The position numbers and the translations under genes are program-made. A DNA stretch of 64,000 nt from an uncultured Bacillota bacterium (lineage in GTDB: Bacteria; Bacillota_I; Bacilli_A; RF39; UBA660), in assembly GCA_900317975.1 (NCBI GenBank), contig ONIZ01000001.1, forward strand, positions 62,001-126,000, in the 5' to 3' direction. The notes beneath the pieces are model-generated. The model was not told where the DNA came from. It worked only from the letters and a program-made list of their open reading frames with translations, and made no database searches. Shown piece by piece: positions 1,965-61,481 of the stretch (position 1 is its first letter; each line of letters starts with the position of its first letter).

Positions 1965-3266
1965 ATGAAGAAAACTAATAGTTTAGAAGACTTTATAGCT
2001 AACAAGTCAAGTTTTTCTAGAAAAACAAGCATTATGGAAGCTAGAAGAAAAAAAGATGAGTCTGATGTAAAGCAGGAAGATGTAGAAGGATTGTCTGCTG
2101 AAGAAAACGGCTCAGAAGGAAAATGGGCAGTTGAGCCACCAACAGATGATGATCTATTAAAAGGTATTGATAGAGAAACTCTTACAAAGAACAAGAAACG
2201 TATATTATTACGTATGAAAGCTAACAAACCATTCTTTGTTGAAGGTAGAGCTGGTTGGGGTAAGACAAGTATCATTACAAAGTTAGCTCATCAATGTAAA
2301 CGTACAGTAATTACAGTATATCTTGATAAGATTCCACCTGAGGATCTTGGTGGTACTCCTGTTCCATTCAAATCAAAGAAGGGTGGTGACTATGTAAAGA
2401 CACTTATGCCAGGATGGGCAGTAATTATGTATGATAATCCTGATACAGATTACTTATTGTTCTTTGATGAAATGAATCAGGCAGATCCTCAAGTAATGAA
2501 TGCATTGATGCCTATTGTATTGAAGAATGTAATTTGCGGTGTTCAATTCAAGAACTTCATCGTTGGTGGTGCTGGTAACCTCGAAGATGAAAACCAGGGC
2601 GGTGTAAACCAACTTTCAAAACCATTGAGATCTCGTTTTGGTGGTATTATTAAATGGGAAGATGGTGACTGGGCAAGTTCATTTGACTTCCTTCATAAGA
2701 AATGGGACGCAAAACTAGGCCGTAAATTTGTTGACAGAATTCAAGACAACTGTGAATGCTTTGATAACCCTAGAGATATTGACAATCATATTATTGACAC
2801 TATTGCAAATATCAAAGCAGGTAAAGAAGATGCAGATATCTTTGATGCTTCTGACTGGTTAGACCAATTGAATGACTTGGCAAAAGAAGATCTATCACAC
2901 ACTCAAGAACATAATCTTGAAGAATTGGCAGACTACATCTACAATTATGTAAATGGAAATGAAGATGAAGATGATGATAGAACAGGTTCAAGTAAAGACA
3001 TCAATATGGTAGATGAAAAGGTAATTGCATTTATCAAGAAAATTATGACTAGAGGATGGGTAGAAGATCCACATAGCCCACAGAAGAAGTATGGTGTATC
3101 TAGAGAGAACCTGAAGGGAATAGCTGAAGAACTTCTTCCAAATGGTGAGTTAGTTGAAATCATTCTCGATAAGTTAGAAGCTGAAGGTGCTAAGTTCAAA
3201 TATGAAACAAATGCAGAATGGAAGAAAGCTAATCCTAAGTTATTAGACCCTGATGCAGAAGATTAA
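1965..3266 (+). CDS. MoxR-type AAA+ ATPase
   Basis: 433 residues. Walker A is G94-R-A-G-W-G-K100-T101. Walker B is L-L-F-F-D168-E169 followed by M-N-Q-A. The PLRSRFGG stretch near residue 224 fits the arginine-finger region. This arrangement is typical of MoxR/AAA_5 ATPases, which remodel or load partner proteins. The N-terminal 60 residues are charged and probably disordered; the C-terminal third is acidic. Downstream, after one small gene, lies a metallopeptidase/VWA protein, the usual partner of MoxR ATPases, so the three genes probably form one operon. The phage role (chaperone for assembly, or modification of host proteins) is not evident. The family call is firm; the function is inferred. 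Confidence 0.88.
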   Translation: MKKTNSLEDFIANKSSFSRKTSIMEARRKKDESDVKQEDVEGLSAEENGSEGKWAVEPPTDDDLLKGIDRETLTKNKKRILLRMKANKPFFVEGRAGWGKTSIITKLAHQCKRTVITVYLDKIPPEDLGGTPVPFKSKKGGDYVKTLMPGWAVIMYDNPDTDYLLFFDEMNQADPQVMNALMPIVLKNVICGVQFKNFIVGGAGNLEDENQGGVNQLSKPLRSRFGGIIKWEDGDWASSFDFLHKKWDAKLGRKFVDRIQDNCECFDNPRDIDNHIIDTIANIKAGKEDADIFDASDWLDQLNDLAKEDLSHTQEHNLEELADYIYNYVNGNEDEDDDRTGSSKDINMVDEKVIAFIKKIMTRGWVEDPHSPQKKYGVSRENLKGIAEELLPNGELVEIILDKLEAEGAKFKYETNAEWKKANPKLLDPDAED

Positions 3267-3324
3267 ATAATATCTAATAAATGACTATTATATTTATATA
3301 AATTAATTTATAAAACAAATAGCT

Positions 3325-3642
3325 ATGTTAATAAAACCAAGAAACATATTACAATTTGATAATGATGATGAGTTTGACAGATATTGCATTGTCCCTAAAC
3401 TTGTCAAGAAATCATATGTAAAGAAGGATGGAAGTAATAGTGATTATATAGATTTTGACTTTACTCCTGAATATGAAGATTCTGTAAAGAACAATGATGC
3501 GTTCATTATTTTAGACAGAGATTCAGCAACTCTAAGAAGAAAATGTGTATCATATAGAACAATTGCAAAGAAAGTAAAGAATCTATATCCTTGGTATTAT
3601 GAAAAGATCTTTAATAAAAACAAAAAGGTAAAGACAATTTAA
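3325..3642 (+). CDS. Hypothetical protein between the AAA+ and VWA genes
   Basis: 105 residues, starting 58 bases after the AAA+ gene and ending one base before the ATG of the VWA gene, which indicates translational coupling. The N-terminal half is acidic (FDNDDEFDRY). The C-terminus is basic (residues 80-105, many Lys). No membrane segment or known motif is visible. Its place inside the MoxR/VWA pair suggests an adaptor or third component of that machine; this rests on context only. Confidence 0.72.
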   Translation: MLIKPRNILQFDNDDEFDRYCIVPKLVKKSYVKKDGSNSDYIDFDFTPEYEDSVKNNDAFIILDRDSATLRRKCVSYRTIAKKVKNLYPWYYEKIFNKNKKVKTI

Positions 3643-53176: not shown

Positions 53177-53587
53177 ATGAAAAGATGGGATCAGTTGAAA
53201 GCTGGTGACTACATATATTATTATGATCATCAGAAAATACATAAGCAATTAGTAAAGAAAGTAGACACAATAGCATTTACCAAAAACGAAAAGTCATTTG
53301 ACGGTAATTTCAATATTGTCACATCAAAGGTTGTTGAAGAATATTTATTGATCTATGCTGGAAAGAATACATTGATAAAACTTCCAAAGAACTGGATAAA
53401 GACTCAATGTGAGAAATATAATGACTATTCTATAAGATATGAGTGCATGCCAAGGTTTTGTGATGAAGAAGATGCTCGAGCATATATGGAGAAACTCATT
53501 TCTATTCGTAAGAAAAGAGTAGAAAAATATGAGAAAAAATATCTTAAAGAAAAGAAGATCTTGGACTCTTATTGCTTAGAAATTTAA
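53177..53587 (+). CDS. Hypothetical basic protein
   Basis: 136 residues, one base after the DHH gene, so translated with it. The N-terminus (KRWDQLKAGDYIYYYD) looks like a small SH3-like barrel opening. The C-terminal 40 residues are a Lys/Glu-rich helix (RKKRVEKYEKKYLKEKK). No known motif. Perhaps nucleic-acid binding. Confidence 0.68.
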   Translation: MKRWDQLKAGDYIYYYDHQKIHKQLVKKVDTIAFTKNEKSFDGNFNIVTSKVVEEYLLIYAGKNTLIKLPKNWIKTQCEKYNDYSIRYECMPRFCDEEDARAYMEKLISIRKKRVEKYEKKYLKEKKILDSYCLEI

Positions 53588-53911: not shown

Positions 53912-54712
53912 ATGAAAGTAATCAAACGTGATGGCACTCCTCAGGAATATTCGTTCATAAAGATTGCAGATGCTATAAGTAAAGCATTTGAATCAGTTGG
54001 ACAGGATGTTCCTGAAAAGTTTTTAGAACAAGTGAAAGACTCAGTTGAAAAGCTAATAATCAAAAACAATGGTCAAGGAACACCAATTGAAGAAATTCAA
54101 GATGTCATACAAAAGGAATTGATAAAAAGAAACAAATATGAAGTTGTAGAAGCATTCATAAACTATAGAAGAAAACGTGAAGAGATTCGTGAGCAGAAGA
54201 CCGACTTAATGAAGCAAATTCAGGAAAAACTTTCTGCAAGTAATGTCCAAAATCAGAACGCCAATCTAGATGAAGCTTCATTTGGCGGAAGACTTGGAGA
54301 GACTGCAGGAGCTGTTGCCAAGAATCTTGCATTGAAGAAAATGTCAAAACAGTCACGAAAGAATCATGATGACAATATGATATATGAGCATGATCTAGAC
54401 CATTTTATGACAGGAGACCATAATTGCTTAAGTATTCCATTTGATAAGTTATTAGCGGAAGGATTTAAGACAAGACAGACAGATGTTAGACCCGCTGGTT
54501 CAGTAAATACCGCAATGCAATTAGTAGCAGTAATTTTCCAATTACAAAGTCTTCAACAGTTTGGTGGTGTAGGTGCAACTCATATTGACTGGACAATGGT
54601 ACCTTATGTAAGAAAATCATTTATGAAACATTTTAAAGAAGGACTGAAATATTGTGAAGGAAAGACTGATGAAGAAATTGAAAAGATAATTAATGATATA
54701 TTAAAAGATTAA
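53912..54712 (+). CDS. nrdD: Anaerobic ribonucleotide reductase NrdD, N-terminal piece
   Basis: 266 residues from the ATG at 53912. An ATP-cone domain (V-I-K-R-D-G-T-P-Q-E-Y-S, residues 2-90) gives allosteric control. Then comes the start of the reductase barrel: N-L-D-E-A-S-F-G-G-R, Y-E-H-D-L-D-H-F, and G-D-H-N-C-L, whose Cys corresponds to the conserved disulfide-forming Cys (C79 of T4 NrdD). It stops after M-V-P-Y-V-R-K-S-F-M-K-H-F-K-E-G-L and a short acidic tail, where intact NrdD would run on. The remainder is encoded at 56537 and 57648. The enzyme makes dNTPs without oxygen, pointing to an anaerobic host. Confidence 0.86.
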   Translation: MKVIKRDGTPQEYSFIKIADAISKAFESVGQDVPEKFLEQVKDSVEKLIIKNNGQGTPIEEIQDVIQKELIKRNKYEVVEAFINYRRKREEIREQKTDLMKQIQEKLSASNVQNQNANLDEASFGGRLGETAGAVAKNLALKKMSKQSRKNHDDNMIYEHDLDHFMTGDHNCLSIPFDKLLAEGFKTRQTDVRPAGSVNTAMQLVAVIFQLQSLQQFGGVGATHIDWTMVPYVRKSFMKHFKEGLKYCEGKTDEEIEKIINDILKD

Positions 54713-54713
54713 T

Positions 54714-54869
54714 ATGAAAAGATATAAGATACATTATAGAAAGAATAGTTTAGAAAATTGGACTGAATATGATAATGTAGTATATGAAGACTATTGTCTG
54801 GCTTATTATGTTATGAGAGATATTCAAGAGCAGTTTTCTAATTATTGTTTTGAAATATATGAAATATAA
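54714..54869 (+). CDS. Small hypothetical protein in the nrdD insertion
   Basis: 51 residues, starting one base after the stop of the first nrdD piece. Tyr/Glu-rich and compact (YKIHYRKNSLENWTEYDNVV), probably alpha/beta. There is no leader and no known motif. It is the first of three genes separating the first two nrdD pieces. Confidence 0.55.
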   Translation: MKRYKIHYRKNSLENWTEYDNVVYEDYCLAYYVMRDIQEQFSNYCFEIYEI

Positions 54870-54887
54870 AAAAAAAATATATTATAT

Positions 54888-55124
54888 ATGAAAAGCTTTA
54901 AAAAATATATTAAAATAAATGAATCGGTCAAACCAGAAAATGGAAAAGACTGGGAAGTATATCTTGATGGTTCTTTAGACAATACTTTTACCGAATGGGC
55001 TAAGAAATGGAAGAAATATCCAAAAATAGGTAAAGGATGGTATGCCGGAGGAACTGTATTCAAGGTAGTAAAGATAGAAGACAATAAAGTATATGTTGAA
55101 GAAGATAAAAACTGCAAACCATAA
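54888..55124 (+). CDS. Leader-like small protein in the nrdD insertion
   Basis: 78 residues. The N-terminus MKSFKKYIKINES resembles the packaging leader with two extra residues; the cut site would be I-N-E|S. The mature part has an acidic/aromatic domain (WEVYLDGSLDNTFTEWAKKW) and a basic C-terminal strand pair. Its presence between nrdD pieces suggests that cargo genes can move along with the homing-endonuclease insertion. Confidence 0.62.
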   Translation: MKSFKKYIKINESVKPENGKDWEVYLDGSLDNTFTEWAKKWKKYPKIGKGWYAGGTVFKVVKIEDNKVYVEEDKNCKP

Positions 55125-55173
55125 AAATTTATAAAAAATAATGTGAAAATAAGTTGATTTCCAAAGCAAAAAT

Positions 55174-55192
55174 GATTATTTTTAATTATAAA
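55174..55192 (+). promoter_or_regulatory. Candidate promoter for the homing endonuclease
   Basis: GATTATTTTTAATTATAAA, 17 bases before the start codon. It gives the endonuclease, and nrdD piece 2 after it, an independent promoter. Confidence 0.45.
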
Positions 55193-55209
55193 AATATGAA
55201 TTATAAAAT

Positions 55210-56526
55210 ATGTTAAAAGAAGAAATATTAACTATATTTAAACAAAAAAATATAATATCTTCAAATAATAAAAAACATTTTTGTTGGAAGAAATATTGGG
55301 ATTTGGAAGCAGAACAAATATTTAATGAGTTTAAACAAAATTATAGAACTGATAAAGAAGCATGGTTTTGTCTTTTACATAATATTGAACCATACCATTG
55401 TGAGATATGTGGTGAATTAGCAAAATTTACAGGAAATATAAAATCTAAAATTATTGGATATAATACAACATGTGAAAATCATTCTCCAAATCAAGTTAAA
55501 AATAAATTAGAAAAATTTTCACAAACAATTAGTAATCATACTGATAATGATAGAAAAAAAATATTAGAAAAACGCAAAAAAACTAATTTAGAAAAATATG
55601 GAGATGAAAACTATACTTTATTTGGATCTGATAGTTTTAAGCAAACTTTAAAAGAAAAATATGGAAATGAACATTATAATAATAGAGAAAAATTTAAAGA
55701 AACATGTTTAGAAAAATATGGAGTTACATGCAATTTATCATTAAATTCTTCAGAAAGAAATAAAAAAATATGGGATGAAAAATATGATAAAATCATTAAT
55801 AAAATTAAACAAACAAATTTAGCTAATTTAGGAGTAGAATTTATAGGACAATCTAAAGAAATAATTGATAAAATTGTTAATACTAAAAAGAATAATGTTT
55901 TAAATATAGAAAAAACTTATAATTGTACTCAACAACGAAAATTATTTCAAAAATATGGGCAGGGGTGGAAATCTTTACATTTAGATAAAATTATTATACA
56001 TGGTAGAAAATTTATATCAAATGAATATATTCCGCTAATAGAAAAATATTTTAATGAATGTCATCATACAAATCAATTTACGTCTAAAGGAGAAAAAGAA
56101 CTATTAAAATATATAAAATCAATATATTCAGGTATTGTACTAGAAAATGTTACAAATATAGTTGCAAACAATAATTATAGATATTATGAATTAGATATAT
56201 ATTTACCTGAAAAAAATATAGCATTTGAATTTAATGGTATATATTGGCATTCAATAAATTATAAAGATAAATTTTATCATCAAAGAAAAACATTATTATG
56301 TTATGCTCAAAATGTACAATTAATACATATATGGGAAAATGAATGGTTAAATAAGCAAGATCAAATAAAACAACAAATAAAAGAATTACTAAATGGTCAA
56401 GATTGTTCAAAATATAATTGGATATCTGTTAATGATTATTCTAATTATATTTTATCTGAACCAGAAGAAATACATGTAGGAAATTTAACAATATTTAATG
56501 AAGGAAAATTTATTAAAAATATATAA
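55210..56526 (+). CDS. Homing endonuclease with Vsr-like (EDxHD-type) C-terminal domain
   Basis: 438 residues. The N-terminus has Cys pairs (C-E-I-C near residues 63-66, and C-E-N-H) that may bind zinc. The middle is a series of E-K-Y-G-x-x-x-x modules (about 130-185) like those of phage homing endonucleases, for DNA contact. The C-terminal domain has Y-Y-E-L-D-I-Y, F-E-F-N-G and W-H-S (about 323-345) and H-I-W-E-N-E-W (near 372), the pattern of a Vsr/PD-(D/E)xK-related nuclease. The DNA is distinctly more AT-rich than nrdD, indicating later arrival. It sits exactly between two nrdD pieces. Confidence 0.78.
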   Translation: MLKEEILTIFKQKNIISSNNKKHFCWKKYWDLEAEQIFNEFKQNYRTDKEAWFCLLHNIEPYHCEICGELAKFTGNIKSKIIGYNTTCENHSPNQVKNKLEKFSQTISNHTDNDRKKILEKRKKTNLEKYGDENYTLFGSDSFKQTLKEKYGNEHYNNREKFKETCLEKYGVTCNLSLNSSERNKKIWDEKYDKIINKIKQTNLANLGVEFIGQSKEIIDKIVNTKKNNVLNIEKTYNCTQQRKLFQKYGQGWKSLHLDKIIIHGRKFISNEYIPLIEKYFNECHHTNQFTSKGEKELLKYIKSIYSGIVLENVTNIVANNNYRYYELDIYLPEKNIAFEFNGIYWHSINYKDKFYHQRKTLLCYAQNVQLIHIWENEWLNKQDQIKQQIKELLNGQDCSKYNWISVNDYSNYILSEPEEIHVGNLTIFNEGKFIKNI

Positions 56527-56536
56527 AGTAAAATAT

Positions 56537-57438
56537 ATGAATGTAACAGATATTGAAATTACAGATTCCAAGTATAAACAATATAAAAATGCTTGGAATT
56601 ATGCTATGGATATGACTGAAAAAGAAATCCATCAAGCAGTTGAAGGAATGTATCACAACTTAAATACTTTGCAGTTGAATAAAAAATTTAATATGGCTGC
56701 CTAACTATATAATACATAAATAGTTATGAAAAAATGAGCAAAATCGGTAGCAGTTGGAATTAAGTTTCCGAGAGATAAGGTTAAATAACGAATAAGCTGC
56801 AGAAGAAAACCTAAGGTCCAAACATATATTTGGATAGCTGGTAATACCGAGGTAAATTTATAGATTACGAAAGGCTATAAATCACCGTAGAGCGTAGGAA
56901 ATGAATAAATATAATTTTCCCAAGAGTGCTCATCATCTTAGTTATTAAAAGATGAAAATGTACGCCGAACTTATGGAGAAATTACATAAGAAGTTAAGAT
57001 AAAAAGCTTAGCGATAACAAATTTGCAAGGAGTGGGAATCAGCTCCCGTTCACCAGTATCAATTATGGAACCTGTCCATTAGAAGCTGGACGTATGGTTA
57101 CTAAAGCATTGTTAGAAGTATCTATGGAGGGATTAGGCAATAATGGAGTAACATCAATTTTTCCATGTGGAATCTTCCAATATAAGAAAGGAATTAATGA
57201 CAAACCCGGAACACCAAACTATGACTTAAAGAGACTAGCATTAAAATCAACATCAATGAGAATATATCCAAATTATTGTAACGCTGACTGGACAAATAAT
57301 GCTAATGCACTAAAACAAGACAGAAAACAAAAGCAAGAATATATTGATTCATTGTCTGAAAAAGAATACGCAAAACTAGTGGAAGTTTTAGAACAAAATC
57401 CTAATGTTGCAGAAAAACTTGGATTAGAATTAGAATAA
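56537..57438 (+). CDS. nrdD: NrdD middle piece, interrupted by a group I intron (join 56537-56675 and 57026-57438)
   Basis: Spliced product is 183 residues. The 5' exon ends N-T-L-Q plus the first base of a Ser codon; the 3' exon supplies the rest and continues R-S-G-N-Q-L-P-F-T-S-I-N-Y-G-T, the conserved NrdD block. It then has G-I-F-Q-Y-K-K-G, P-N-Y-D-L and R-I-Y-P-N-Y, and ends in an acidic helix (SEKEYAKLVEVLEQNPN) before a stop. Without splicing, translation ends at 56704 inside the intron. The ATG at 56537 (MNVTDIEITDSK) starts 10 bases after the endonuclease stop. This piece must associate with two others to form the active barrel. Confidence 0.85.
56676..57025 (+). ncRNA. Group I self-splicing intron in nrdD
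   Basis: 350 nt, no ORF. Boundaries are set by restoring the NrdD frame. The 5' exon ends GCAGT; P1 pairs exon GCAGU with intron GCUGC (56696-56700), giving a U-G wobble exactly at the splice site. The intron ends in G (AAATTTG at 57019-57025), the terminal guanosine required by group I introns. A strong hairpin CTTATG/CATAAG (56970-56990) and another, TCATCTT/AAGATGA (56930-56953), fit the 3' core region. T4 nrdD carries a group I intron in the same gene. The full P3-P8 core has not been folded. Confidence 0.85.
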
Positions 57439-57461
57439 TGATTAATGAATAATATTACAAT

Positions 57462-57635
57462 ATGAAAACAACAGATAAAAATTTGCATATAATAGCAAAA
57501 AGAATATCTTATAAAGTAAATGAAGAAGACATAAAGACAATTATTCCTATTATTATGCCATATAGTTTACATACAATTGGAATTATGACTTTAGGAAACT
57601 ATAATGATGACAAAAAATACAAAAGAAATATATAA
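57462..57635 (+). CDS. Small hypothetical protein between nrdD pieces 2 and 3
   Basis: 57 residues, with a basic N-terminus (MKTTDKNLHIIAKRISYKV) and a hydrophobic middle (TIIPIIMPYSLHTIGIM). It is the only gene in the second split of nrdD. It is not long enough for a homing endonuclease and shows no such motif, so it may be a remnant or an unrelated passenger. It starts 23 bases after piece 2 and ends 12 bases before piece 3. Confidence 0.5.
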   Translation: MKTTDKNLHIIAKRISYKVNEEDIKTIIPIIMPYSLHTIGIMTLGNYNDDKKYKRNI

Positions 57636-57647
57636 AGACATAAAGAT

Positions 57648-58814
57648 ATGAAGAAAATCAAAGTTAGTTTAGAAGAACGACCTATTGAATTATTTAACAC
57701 TATGGGGTGCCGCACGGTCAATTTATTAGATATAAATGCATTAGATAATTTCAAACAAAATATACAAAATGTCATTAATGGAGAATTCAACAAGATTGAT
57801 GATGTTTTCTCCGCTATTCAGAAAGATGGACGTGGAAATATATGCCCAGTAACTATCATATTACCTACTCTTGCTGCAATGACAAGAAGAAAACTTGAAA
57901 AGAAAGAACAGTTTGACAATAAAGAACTAGTATGGGAAGAATTCATGAAGTTAGTAGACAAGAAAATACATGAAGCAAAAGACATGTTATTAGAAAGATT
58001 CAACCATATCTGTTCACAATCACCAAAGTCTGCAAGATTTATGTATGAAAATAATACAATGTCGGGGTATCATAAAAATGAAGGAATCATATCAGCATTG
58101 AAGCATGGAACACTTGTAATAGGTCAAATCGGTATGTCTGAAACTTTATATCTTTTGTTTGGATTTGATCATACTACAGAAAAGGGAATGGAATATGCAA
58201 AACAGATTGAACAACTTTGGTTAGACAGAACATCAGAATTTAAGAAAGAATATAAACTAAACTTTGGAGTCTATTATACACCAGCAGAGAATCTTTGCTT
58301 CACTTCATTCAACAAATTTAGAAAAGCATTTCCTGAATATGACTTAGAAGGTGTCACTTATTTTGTTGATTCTAATGGAGAAAAGAACTACAAAAAATAT
58401 TTCACTAATTCTATTCATGTACCAGTATATTATAATTGCGATGTATTCAATAAGATTGATATAGAAAGTCAACTCACAGGTTATTCAAACGCCGGGTGCA
58501 TCACTTATGTAGAGTTAGACAGTACATGCTATAATAATATAGATGCTATTGAAAAGATTGTTGACTATGCTATGGATAAAGACATTCCTTACTTTGCATT
58601 GAACATACCATTGAACAGATGTGCAGAATGCGGTGAGCCTATCTATGATGAAGCATTGACAGAATGTCCAAAATGTGGTTGTGACAAGATAACAAGGCTT
58701 GGACGAATAACTGGCTATCTTTCTACAACTGTGGAACATTTCAATAAAGGAAAGCAAAAAGAATTCAAAGATAGAGTTGATCATATAGGACAAAGTATAT
58801 TTAGTGATTGTTGA
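57648..58814 (+). CDS. nrdD: NrdD C-terminal piece with radical site
   Basis: 388 residues. It opens with E-E-R-P-I-E-L-F, then N-T-M-G-C-R-T, whose Cys is the predicted thiyl-radical Cys (C290 of T4 NrdD). Y-Y-T-P-A-E-N-L-C-F and H-V-P-V-Y-Y-N are conserved substrate-barrel segments. A zinc site is formed by C-A-E-C and C-P-K-C near the end. The glycyl-radical glycine is G356 in R-I-T-G-Y-L, followed by H-F-N-K-G-K-Q-K-E-F. With piece 1 (partner Cys) and piece 2 (barrel centre), the active site is spread over three polypeptides. NrdG at 60996 would install the radical. Confidence 0.88.
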   Translation: MKKIKVSLEERPIELFNTMGCRTVNLLDINALDNFKQNIQNVINGEFNKIDDVFSAIQKDGRGNICPVTIILPTLAAMTRRKLEKKEQFDNKELVWEEFMKLVDKKIHEAKDMLLERFNHICSQSPKSARFMYENNTMSGYHKNEGIISALKHGTLVIGQIGMSETLYLLFGFDHTTEKGMEYAKQIEQLWLDRTSEFKKEYKLNFGVYYTPAENLCFTSFNKFRKAFPEYDLEGVTYFVDSNGEKNYKKYFTNSIHVPVYYNCDVFNKIDIESQLTGYSNAGCITYVELDSTCYNNIDAIEKIVDYAMDKDIPYFALNIPLNRCAECGEPIYDEALTECPKCGCDKITRLGRITGYLSTTVEHFNKGKQKEFKDRVDHIGQSIFSDC

Positions 58815-60995: not shown

Positions 60996-61481
60996 ATGCT
61001 TAGAATTGTAGACATAACTGCTCCAGACATCAATAATGGAAATGGTATTAGAGTGACCTTATGGGTTGCGGGTTGTAAACATCATTGCAAAGGCTGTCAT
61101 AATCCTTGGACATGGAACTTTGATCAGGGAAAGTCTTGGTATTATGAAAAAGAATATATAAAGAAAAAATTGTCAGAATGGCTTTCGAAAGACTATGTTG
61201 AAGGTTTGACATTATCTGGAGGAGACCCATTATGCCAAGATATAGCAGGATTGCATGAGATAGTTGAAATTATTGGTTGGGTGCGAGAAACATTCCCTAC
61301 AAAAACTATCTGGCTTTATACTGGATATGTATATGAAGATCTTACTGATCTTAAAAAAGAAATTGCTAATTCAGTTGATGTATTAGTTGATGGTCCTTAT
61401 GTAGAAGAACTAAGAGACATTGCTCATACACCATTCAGAGGAAGCACAAACCAAAGACTTATTTATATGAAAGAAAAATAA
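60996..61481 (+). CDS. nrdG: Anaerobic ribonucleotide reductase activating protein NrdG
   Basis: 161 residues from the ATG at 60996; a GTG two codons upstream is an alternative. The radical-SAM cluster motif is C27-K-H-H-C31-K-G-C34, the CxxxCxxC form. V-T-L-W-V-A-G-C precedes it and L-T-L-S-G-G-D-P-L follows (SAM-binding GGxP-type motif). NrdG uses a 4Fe-4S cluster and S-adenosylmethionine to make the glycyl radical on NrdD. An AGAGG stretch just before the start is one of the few ribosome-binding-like sites here. It is separated from nrdD by about 2 kb. Confidence 0.9.
   Translation: MLRIVDITAPDINNGNGIRVTLWVAGCKHHCKGCHNPWTWNFDQGKSWYYEKEYIKKKLSEWLSKDYVEGLTLSGGDPLCQDIAGLHEIVEIIGWVRETFPTKTIWLYTGYVYEDLTDLKKEIANSVDVLVDGPYVEELRDIAHTPFRGSTNQRLIYMKEK

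Follow-up and report, generated by a model that had tools for sequence, protein, structure and literature searches.

A 350-nt group I intron occupies positions 56676-57025 of the forward strand of the window, the 64,000-nucleotide stretch of DNA analysed here, and interrupts the middle piece of the nrdD gene of a phage represented by a viral contig of 410,106 bases. We are highly confident that this intron excises itself from the mRNA and thereby rejoins the coding sequence for the middle piece of NrdD, a protein made as three polypeptides. Phage ribonucleotide reductase genes are familiar hosts of group I introns. This one is a member of a large subfamily, spread across phages, that the Rfam group I model (RF00028, Intron_gpI) detected in none of the loci tried, and, paired with a second copy in another phage (L149), it gives a clear example from nature of an intron that lacks its own endonuclease and has moved between phages, with a candidate helper enzyme encoded beside it.

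Intron boundaries and the three pieces of nrdD

The ends of the intron could be placed to the base. Joining position 56675 to position 57026 gives an in-frame product that reads ...HNLNTLQSRSGNQLPFTSINYGTC... in translation, or ...AVEGMYHNLNTLQSRSGNQLPFTSINYGTC... in a longer read of the joined frame, and this frame corresponds to the middle of NrdD, the large subunit of anaerobic ribonucleotide reductase (Pfam NRDD); when unspliced, it is closed by the stop codon at 56702-56704. On the forward strand, exon 1 of this second nrdD piece extends over 56537-56675 and exon 2 over 57026-57438 (Pfam NRDD, 5.3e-19). In two intronless relatives, L142 and L143, alignment to the window stops at 56667 and 56673 and restarts at 57029 and 57026, with only the joint codons between the two aligned parts, all within a single open frame. 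The uninterrupted site motif was found in 78 of the 80 viral-contig nrdD loci that ranked best among 356 relatives, although interrupted matches rank lower in such a set, and the true occupied share may therefore be higher. The two exceptions were L144, which does not differ from the window over this region, and L149, which carries an intron with the same ends, giving the same joint. The base-precise splice sites claimed in the original prediction are thus borne out by the in-frame joint, by the intronless relatives and by the joint in L149. The boundary set by the intronless alleles makes G57025 the terminal intron base, so that the intron ends in G as proposed and as group I introns do, and a scan of 56676-57025 found no open reading frame of 60 aa or more, in agreement with the expected lack of an internal reading frame.

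The pairing P1 (56671-56700) also proved to be as predicted: GCAGU (56671-56675) pairs with GCUGC (56696-56700) through G56671-C56700, C56672-G56699, A56673-U56698, G56674-C56697 and U56675.G56696, the last of these at the 5' splice site. The U.G pair is kept in L149, where the same pairing closes a shorter loop. Among the intronless alleles in the best 80 of the 356 relatives, T is present at position -1 in 54 of 78 and the full GCAGT in 2 of 78 (L146 and L178), indicating that few of them have the full complement to P1. In the mechanism that we propose, P1 with its U.G pair would define the 5' site, guanosine would be bound in P7, and two guanosine-dependent transesterifications, the usual group I pathway, would release the intron with its terminal G at the 3' site, rejoining the middle NrdD piece as one of the three polypeptides.

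NrdD is encoded in three open reading frames on the forward strand. The first, at 53912-54712, is a separate frame carrying the ATP cone and the N-terminal part (Pfam ATP-cone 7.3e-19 and NRDD 1.6e-26 on 53918-54712; the start at 53912 was taken from the sequence and from L142), the second is the spliced frame at 56537-57438, and the third, at 57648-58814, encodes the C-terminal part (Pfam NRDD, 2.1e-71). The first break is common to L142 and L143, where the second is absent, and the second, a stop followed by a restart at MKKIKV, is common to L149, where the first is absent; in L145, nrdD is one intact 856-aa frame. Because the breaks are common to separate relatives, we regard them as inherited fissions and not as sequencing errors, and their separate occurrence in L142/L143 and in L149 suggests that the fissions were recombined. 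Neither our family model (R1, described below) nor Rfam found an intron at 54713-56536 or 57439-57647, and both intervals are read as gene fission. The three polypeptides would presumably function together.

That these two other breaks are spacers with no intron of the family might favour a similar reading of 56676-57025, as spacer that is not translated, or as a product of misassembly, separating two fragments of nrdD. We consider this extremely improbable, given the exact joint, the covarying group I core and the second, independent copy that L149 carries at that site.

The gene neighborhoods of nrdD in the window and its relatives contained further features. The activase gene nrdG lies at 61005-61469, about 2.2 kb downstream of the third nrdD piece. 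In L149, an intron-like insert with a GIY-YIG homing endonuclease frame was recognised by eye at 2048-3108 within piece 3; it follows STMG, precedes CRTV and ends in G, and Rfam was silent on it at the gathering threshold. In L143, an insert at 2481-3607 with a homing-endonuclease-like frame (2689-3525) lies inside piece 1, and its part 2607-2672 is 80% identical to the intron at window positions 56788-56857. In Thomasclavelia phage TR-TP1 (L007:2186-5309), nrdD is likewise in pieces, separated by an HNH endonuclease gene, and R1 found no intron there.

The group I core and a subfamily missed by Rfam

A covarying core supports the assignment to group I. We found 58 introns, of which 41 remained after dereplication, and aligned 31 of them with MAFFT without the use of structure. 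Eight helices, numbered here in the order of the covariation analysis, form the core in the window copy: (1) P3, pairing 56736-56739 with 56928-56931 as one helix of the pseudoknot; (2) P4, pairing 56744-56747 with 56847-56850 around a long P5 extension; (3) the P6/P6a hairpin at 56851-56886; (4) P7, pairing 56890 and 56892-56896 with 56961-56966 around one bulged base at the predicted guanosine site; (5) the P7.1 hairpin at 56897-56920, with the conserved loop UGAAUAAAUAUAAU; (6) the P8 hairpin at 56934-56954; (7) the P9 hairpin at 56970-56990; and (8) the P9.1 hairpin at 56994-57011, upstream of the terminal G57025. A P2 hairpin (56702-56708 with 56720-56726) shows a compensatory change in L149. 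The P3-P8 and P4-P6 domains are thus present with the P3/P7 pseudoknot. Over the 31 introns, the 47 pairs of the eight helices were paired in 98.0% of 1447 cells, and 35 of the 47 showed changes on both sides. The covariation score was 0.687, compared with 0.208 for shuffled alignments (0 of 500 shuffles as high) and no more than 0.143 when the structure was slid, a control that leans somewhat towards the structure because the window row and its relatives had served to derive it. Every helix covaried, including both helices of the pseudoknot, with 88-100% of cells paired per helix, P8 being the weakest (88.1%).

In P7, one pair (alignment columns 159/237) was GC in 31 of 31 introns, and we take it to be the guanosine site; the pair preceding the bulge covaried (GC in 17, AU in 13, CG in one). 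Within the run of five pairs, the second was C-G in all 31, at a position where the textbook group I core has A-U. P7.1, the hairpin between P7 and P3 that marks subgroup IA, was paired in 100% of cells, with both-side changes in all five pairs; its invariant loop partly reflects selection, since most of the sequences were found by a pattern containing that loop. By eye, a single hairpin lies between P7 and P3; both P7.1 and P7.2 would be expected in subgroup IA2. Some observations count against the assignment. Folding of the whole intron beat shuffled sequences only modestly (z=-2.56, 2 of 100 shuffles equal), its minimum-energy fold differs from the group I fold, and P10 appears weak by eye.

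The original prediction had named an Rfam Intron_gpI search as a check and the absence of a group I core in that search as grounds for refutation. Taken literally, this is what the search returned: RF00028 gave no match in the 64-kb window at the gathering threshold, nor in a 901-base stretch at E<=10, and the control, the T4 nrdD intron, was matched with 105.3 bits. The same model found none of 15 fetched phage-record relatives at gathering or at E<=10, and none at gathering of 20 viral-contig relatives, which had been chosen, mainly for short length, from at least 120 pattern-scan loci. We attribute the miss to the model and not to the intron, whose group I identity, as predicted, is upheld by the covarying core and by a family-model match within the T4 intron. 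A group II intron was rejected, as RF00029 had no match in the window.

Similarity searches with blastn had shown that 31 phage records contain sequence resembling part of the intron, in most cases its 3' half. R1, a covariance model of the family built without the pseudoknot, scored the window copy, one of its 31 building sequences, at 161.2 bits (E=2.3e-39), and found no other credible copy in the 64-kb window or the whole assembly; a candidate second intron at 53502-53546 (10.9 bits, E=0.5) was taken as chance. The model recognised 15 of 15 fetched phage records, 79 of 79 viral-contig loci tested from at least 120 pattern-scan loci, and 32 of 34 genome-contig stretches, counts that confirm membership but cannot serve as an unbiased survey, since the sequences were preselected by blast or by the family motif and several had also served to build R1. 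With filters off, the best match of R1 to the T4 nrdD locus (14.7 bits, E=0.0027; next best 5.7 bits) lay within the T4 intron and aligned the P7 strands and P9, a weak but independent sign that the family is homologous to an intron proven to be of group I. Five bacterial genome contigs (L326, L323, L333, L313 and L329), perhaps carrying prophages, each contained at least two introns of the subfamily within a few kilobases. A general weakness of the Rfam model for phage introns is already in print (PMC11878797). Because RF00028 missed this subfamily in every locus tried, intron counts and gene calls that depend on the model would be too low.

Movement between phages and the neighbouring endonuclease

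Comparison with L149 revealed that the intron has passed laterally between phages. The two introns are 92.2% identical (306 of 332 ungapped positions), compared with 75.2% over the first 330 nt of exon 2 (Fisher p=2e-9 for the contrast). Upstream, identity is 64.2% over 120 nt, a low value due in part to the different gene layout, with its fission, of the two phages there; it rises to 90% in the nearest 30 nt, and on the nearest 3' side it is not raised (73%). Both introns have the same P5 extension, in which a 23-base stretch occurs in only those two viral contigs, and the identity of the window intron to 30 other family members is 61-80%. As coding exons normally outlast introns, this excess of intron over exon identity indicates lateral transfer. 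Descent of both copies from a common ancestor, with no movement and with selection keeping the intron constant, would explain why the two phages share the site and the P5 extension. It is nonetheless improbable, because a non-coding intron would have been conserved better than the coding exons around it, because L142 and L143, the nearest relatives by exon sequence, have no intron, and because the core tolerates 20-39% change in other family members.

Lateral movement remains our reading, and it apparently took place without an endonuclease encoded in the intron. It is conceivable, although we consider it doubtful, that no endonuclease took part at all: the intron could have reverse-spliced into an RNA that was then copied into DNA, or have been exchanged by ordinary recombination between co-infecting phages. 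The very short flanking similarity, which rises only within the 30 nt immediately 5' of the intron, would be consistent with this, as would the introns of L345 and L346, which are similar over 138 nt of P5-P7 and stand beside an unrelated ATPase-like gene. However, a short tract would also fit homing between diverged alleles, and, to our knowledge, transfer by reverse splicing has rarely been documented in phages, which counts against that form of the explanation. Related introns beside the ATPase-like gene of other phages were located at L345:10154, L346:6851 and L347:3010, with identities to the window intron of 82% over 138 nt (L345, L346) and 76% over 213 nt (L347).

A free-standing homing endonuclease gene, encoding 438 aa (PHROG 3339, 1.9e-44), lies on the forward strand at 55210-56526, ending 149 nt upstream of the intron and 10 nt short of where exon 1 begins. 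Its product has a weak phmmer match to PDB 3r3p, a 'mobile intron protein' (E=0.0064 over 65 aa), and may belong to the EDxHD or I-Bth0305I-like family, which would give it a Vsr-like nuclease domain. This enzyme might cut intronless nrdD near the insertion site, with the intron riding along in collaborative (trans) homing. The proximity of a gene from a phage homing endonuclease family to an intron that moved laterally without an endonuclease of its own would favour such a route, which is known from T4 mobE and nrdB (PMC2988022). Conversely, the nearest relative of the endonuclease is only 36% identical, R1 found no intron near any of 79 other loci of its relatives (up to 5 kb of flanking sequence), so that an association between the endonuclease and intron families was not found, and L149 has the intron and no copy of the endonuclease within its 4.1-kb contig. 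Free-standing endonucleases are also common beside nrd genes with or without introns (PMC2988022). Help in trans to this particular intron is accordingly a guess, and we think the route rather unlikely.

A broader scenario would join these elements. The subfamily unseen by Rfam, with its single P7.1, its UGAAUAAAUAUAAU loop and its C-G second P7 pair, would include introns that lack an endonuclease yet travel between distant phages, and in this phage the neighbouring endonuclease would both have driven the intron in trans and have helped to split nrdD into an enzyme of three co-working parts. As a whole, we regard this scenario as unlikely.

Comparison with known intron systems

The closest known parallel by gene is the nrdD (sunY) intron of phage T4, which lies in the same gene, at the same conserved NTL-x-S motif and in the same codon phase. 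The T4 joint, taken from the T4/T2H alignment, splits the Tyr codon of AYE(Y)EVNTLFS, and the window joint splits the Ser codon of NTLQ(S), 21 nt downstream; the two introns are therefore not at the same site, and nrdD has been hit repeatedly, at different positions, within one conserved motif. The original prediction was right that T4 nrdD holds a group I intron, and its suggestion that the gene attracts introns was a fair one, with the qualification that the sites differ. The T4 intron also carries I-TevII, in contrast to the window intron with no internal endonuclease, and it is found by RF00028, which misses the window intron. Introns in terL, helicase and other genes of crAss-like, staphylococcal and clostridial phages belong to the same subfamily, as the R1 matches to all the fetched records indicate, although they occupy other host genes and mostly have a shorter P5. 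The IA2 introns of IStrons have P7.1 and an extended P9 region, as the window intron does, but are described with both P7.1 and P7.2 (PMC4227781), where the window intron has one hairpin and no IS element. In T4, mobE is likewise a free-standing endonuclease gene adjoining a ribonucleotide reductase intron, that of nrdB (PMC2988022), but it is of the HNH family; the endonuclease at 55210-56526 is not HNH as far as family matches show.

Another parallel is found in the Jug phages, huge gut phages with introns in nrdD and terL, which we compared by their published description. A limited look at the literature brought no other account of split nrdD to our notice, and we make no claim that others are absent. 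According to the preprint, nrdD is fragmented in 95 of 104 Jug genomes and likewise contains group I introns, which average about 206 nt, and free-standing endonucleases are abundant (PMC12363816). That study used published subtype models and not Rfam's single model, and metatranscriptome data support splicing of some of the introns, with RNA reads for 37 of 76 predicted ones (PMC12363816).
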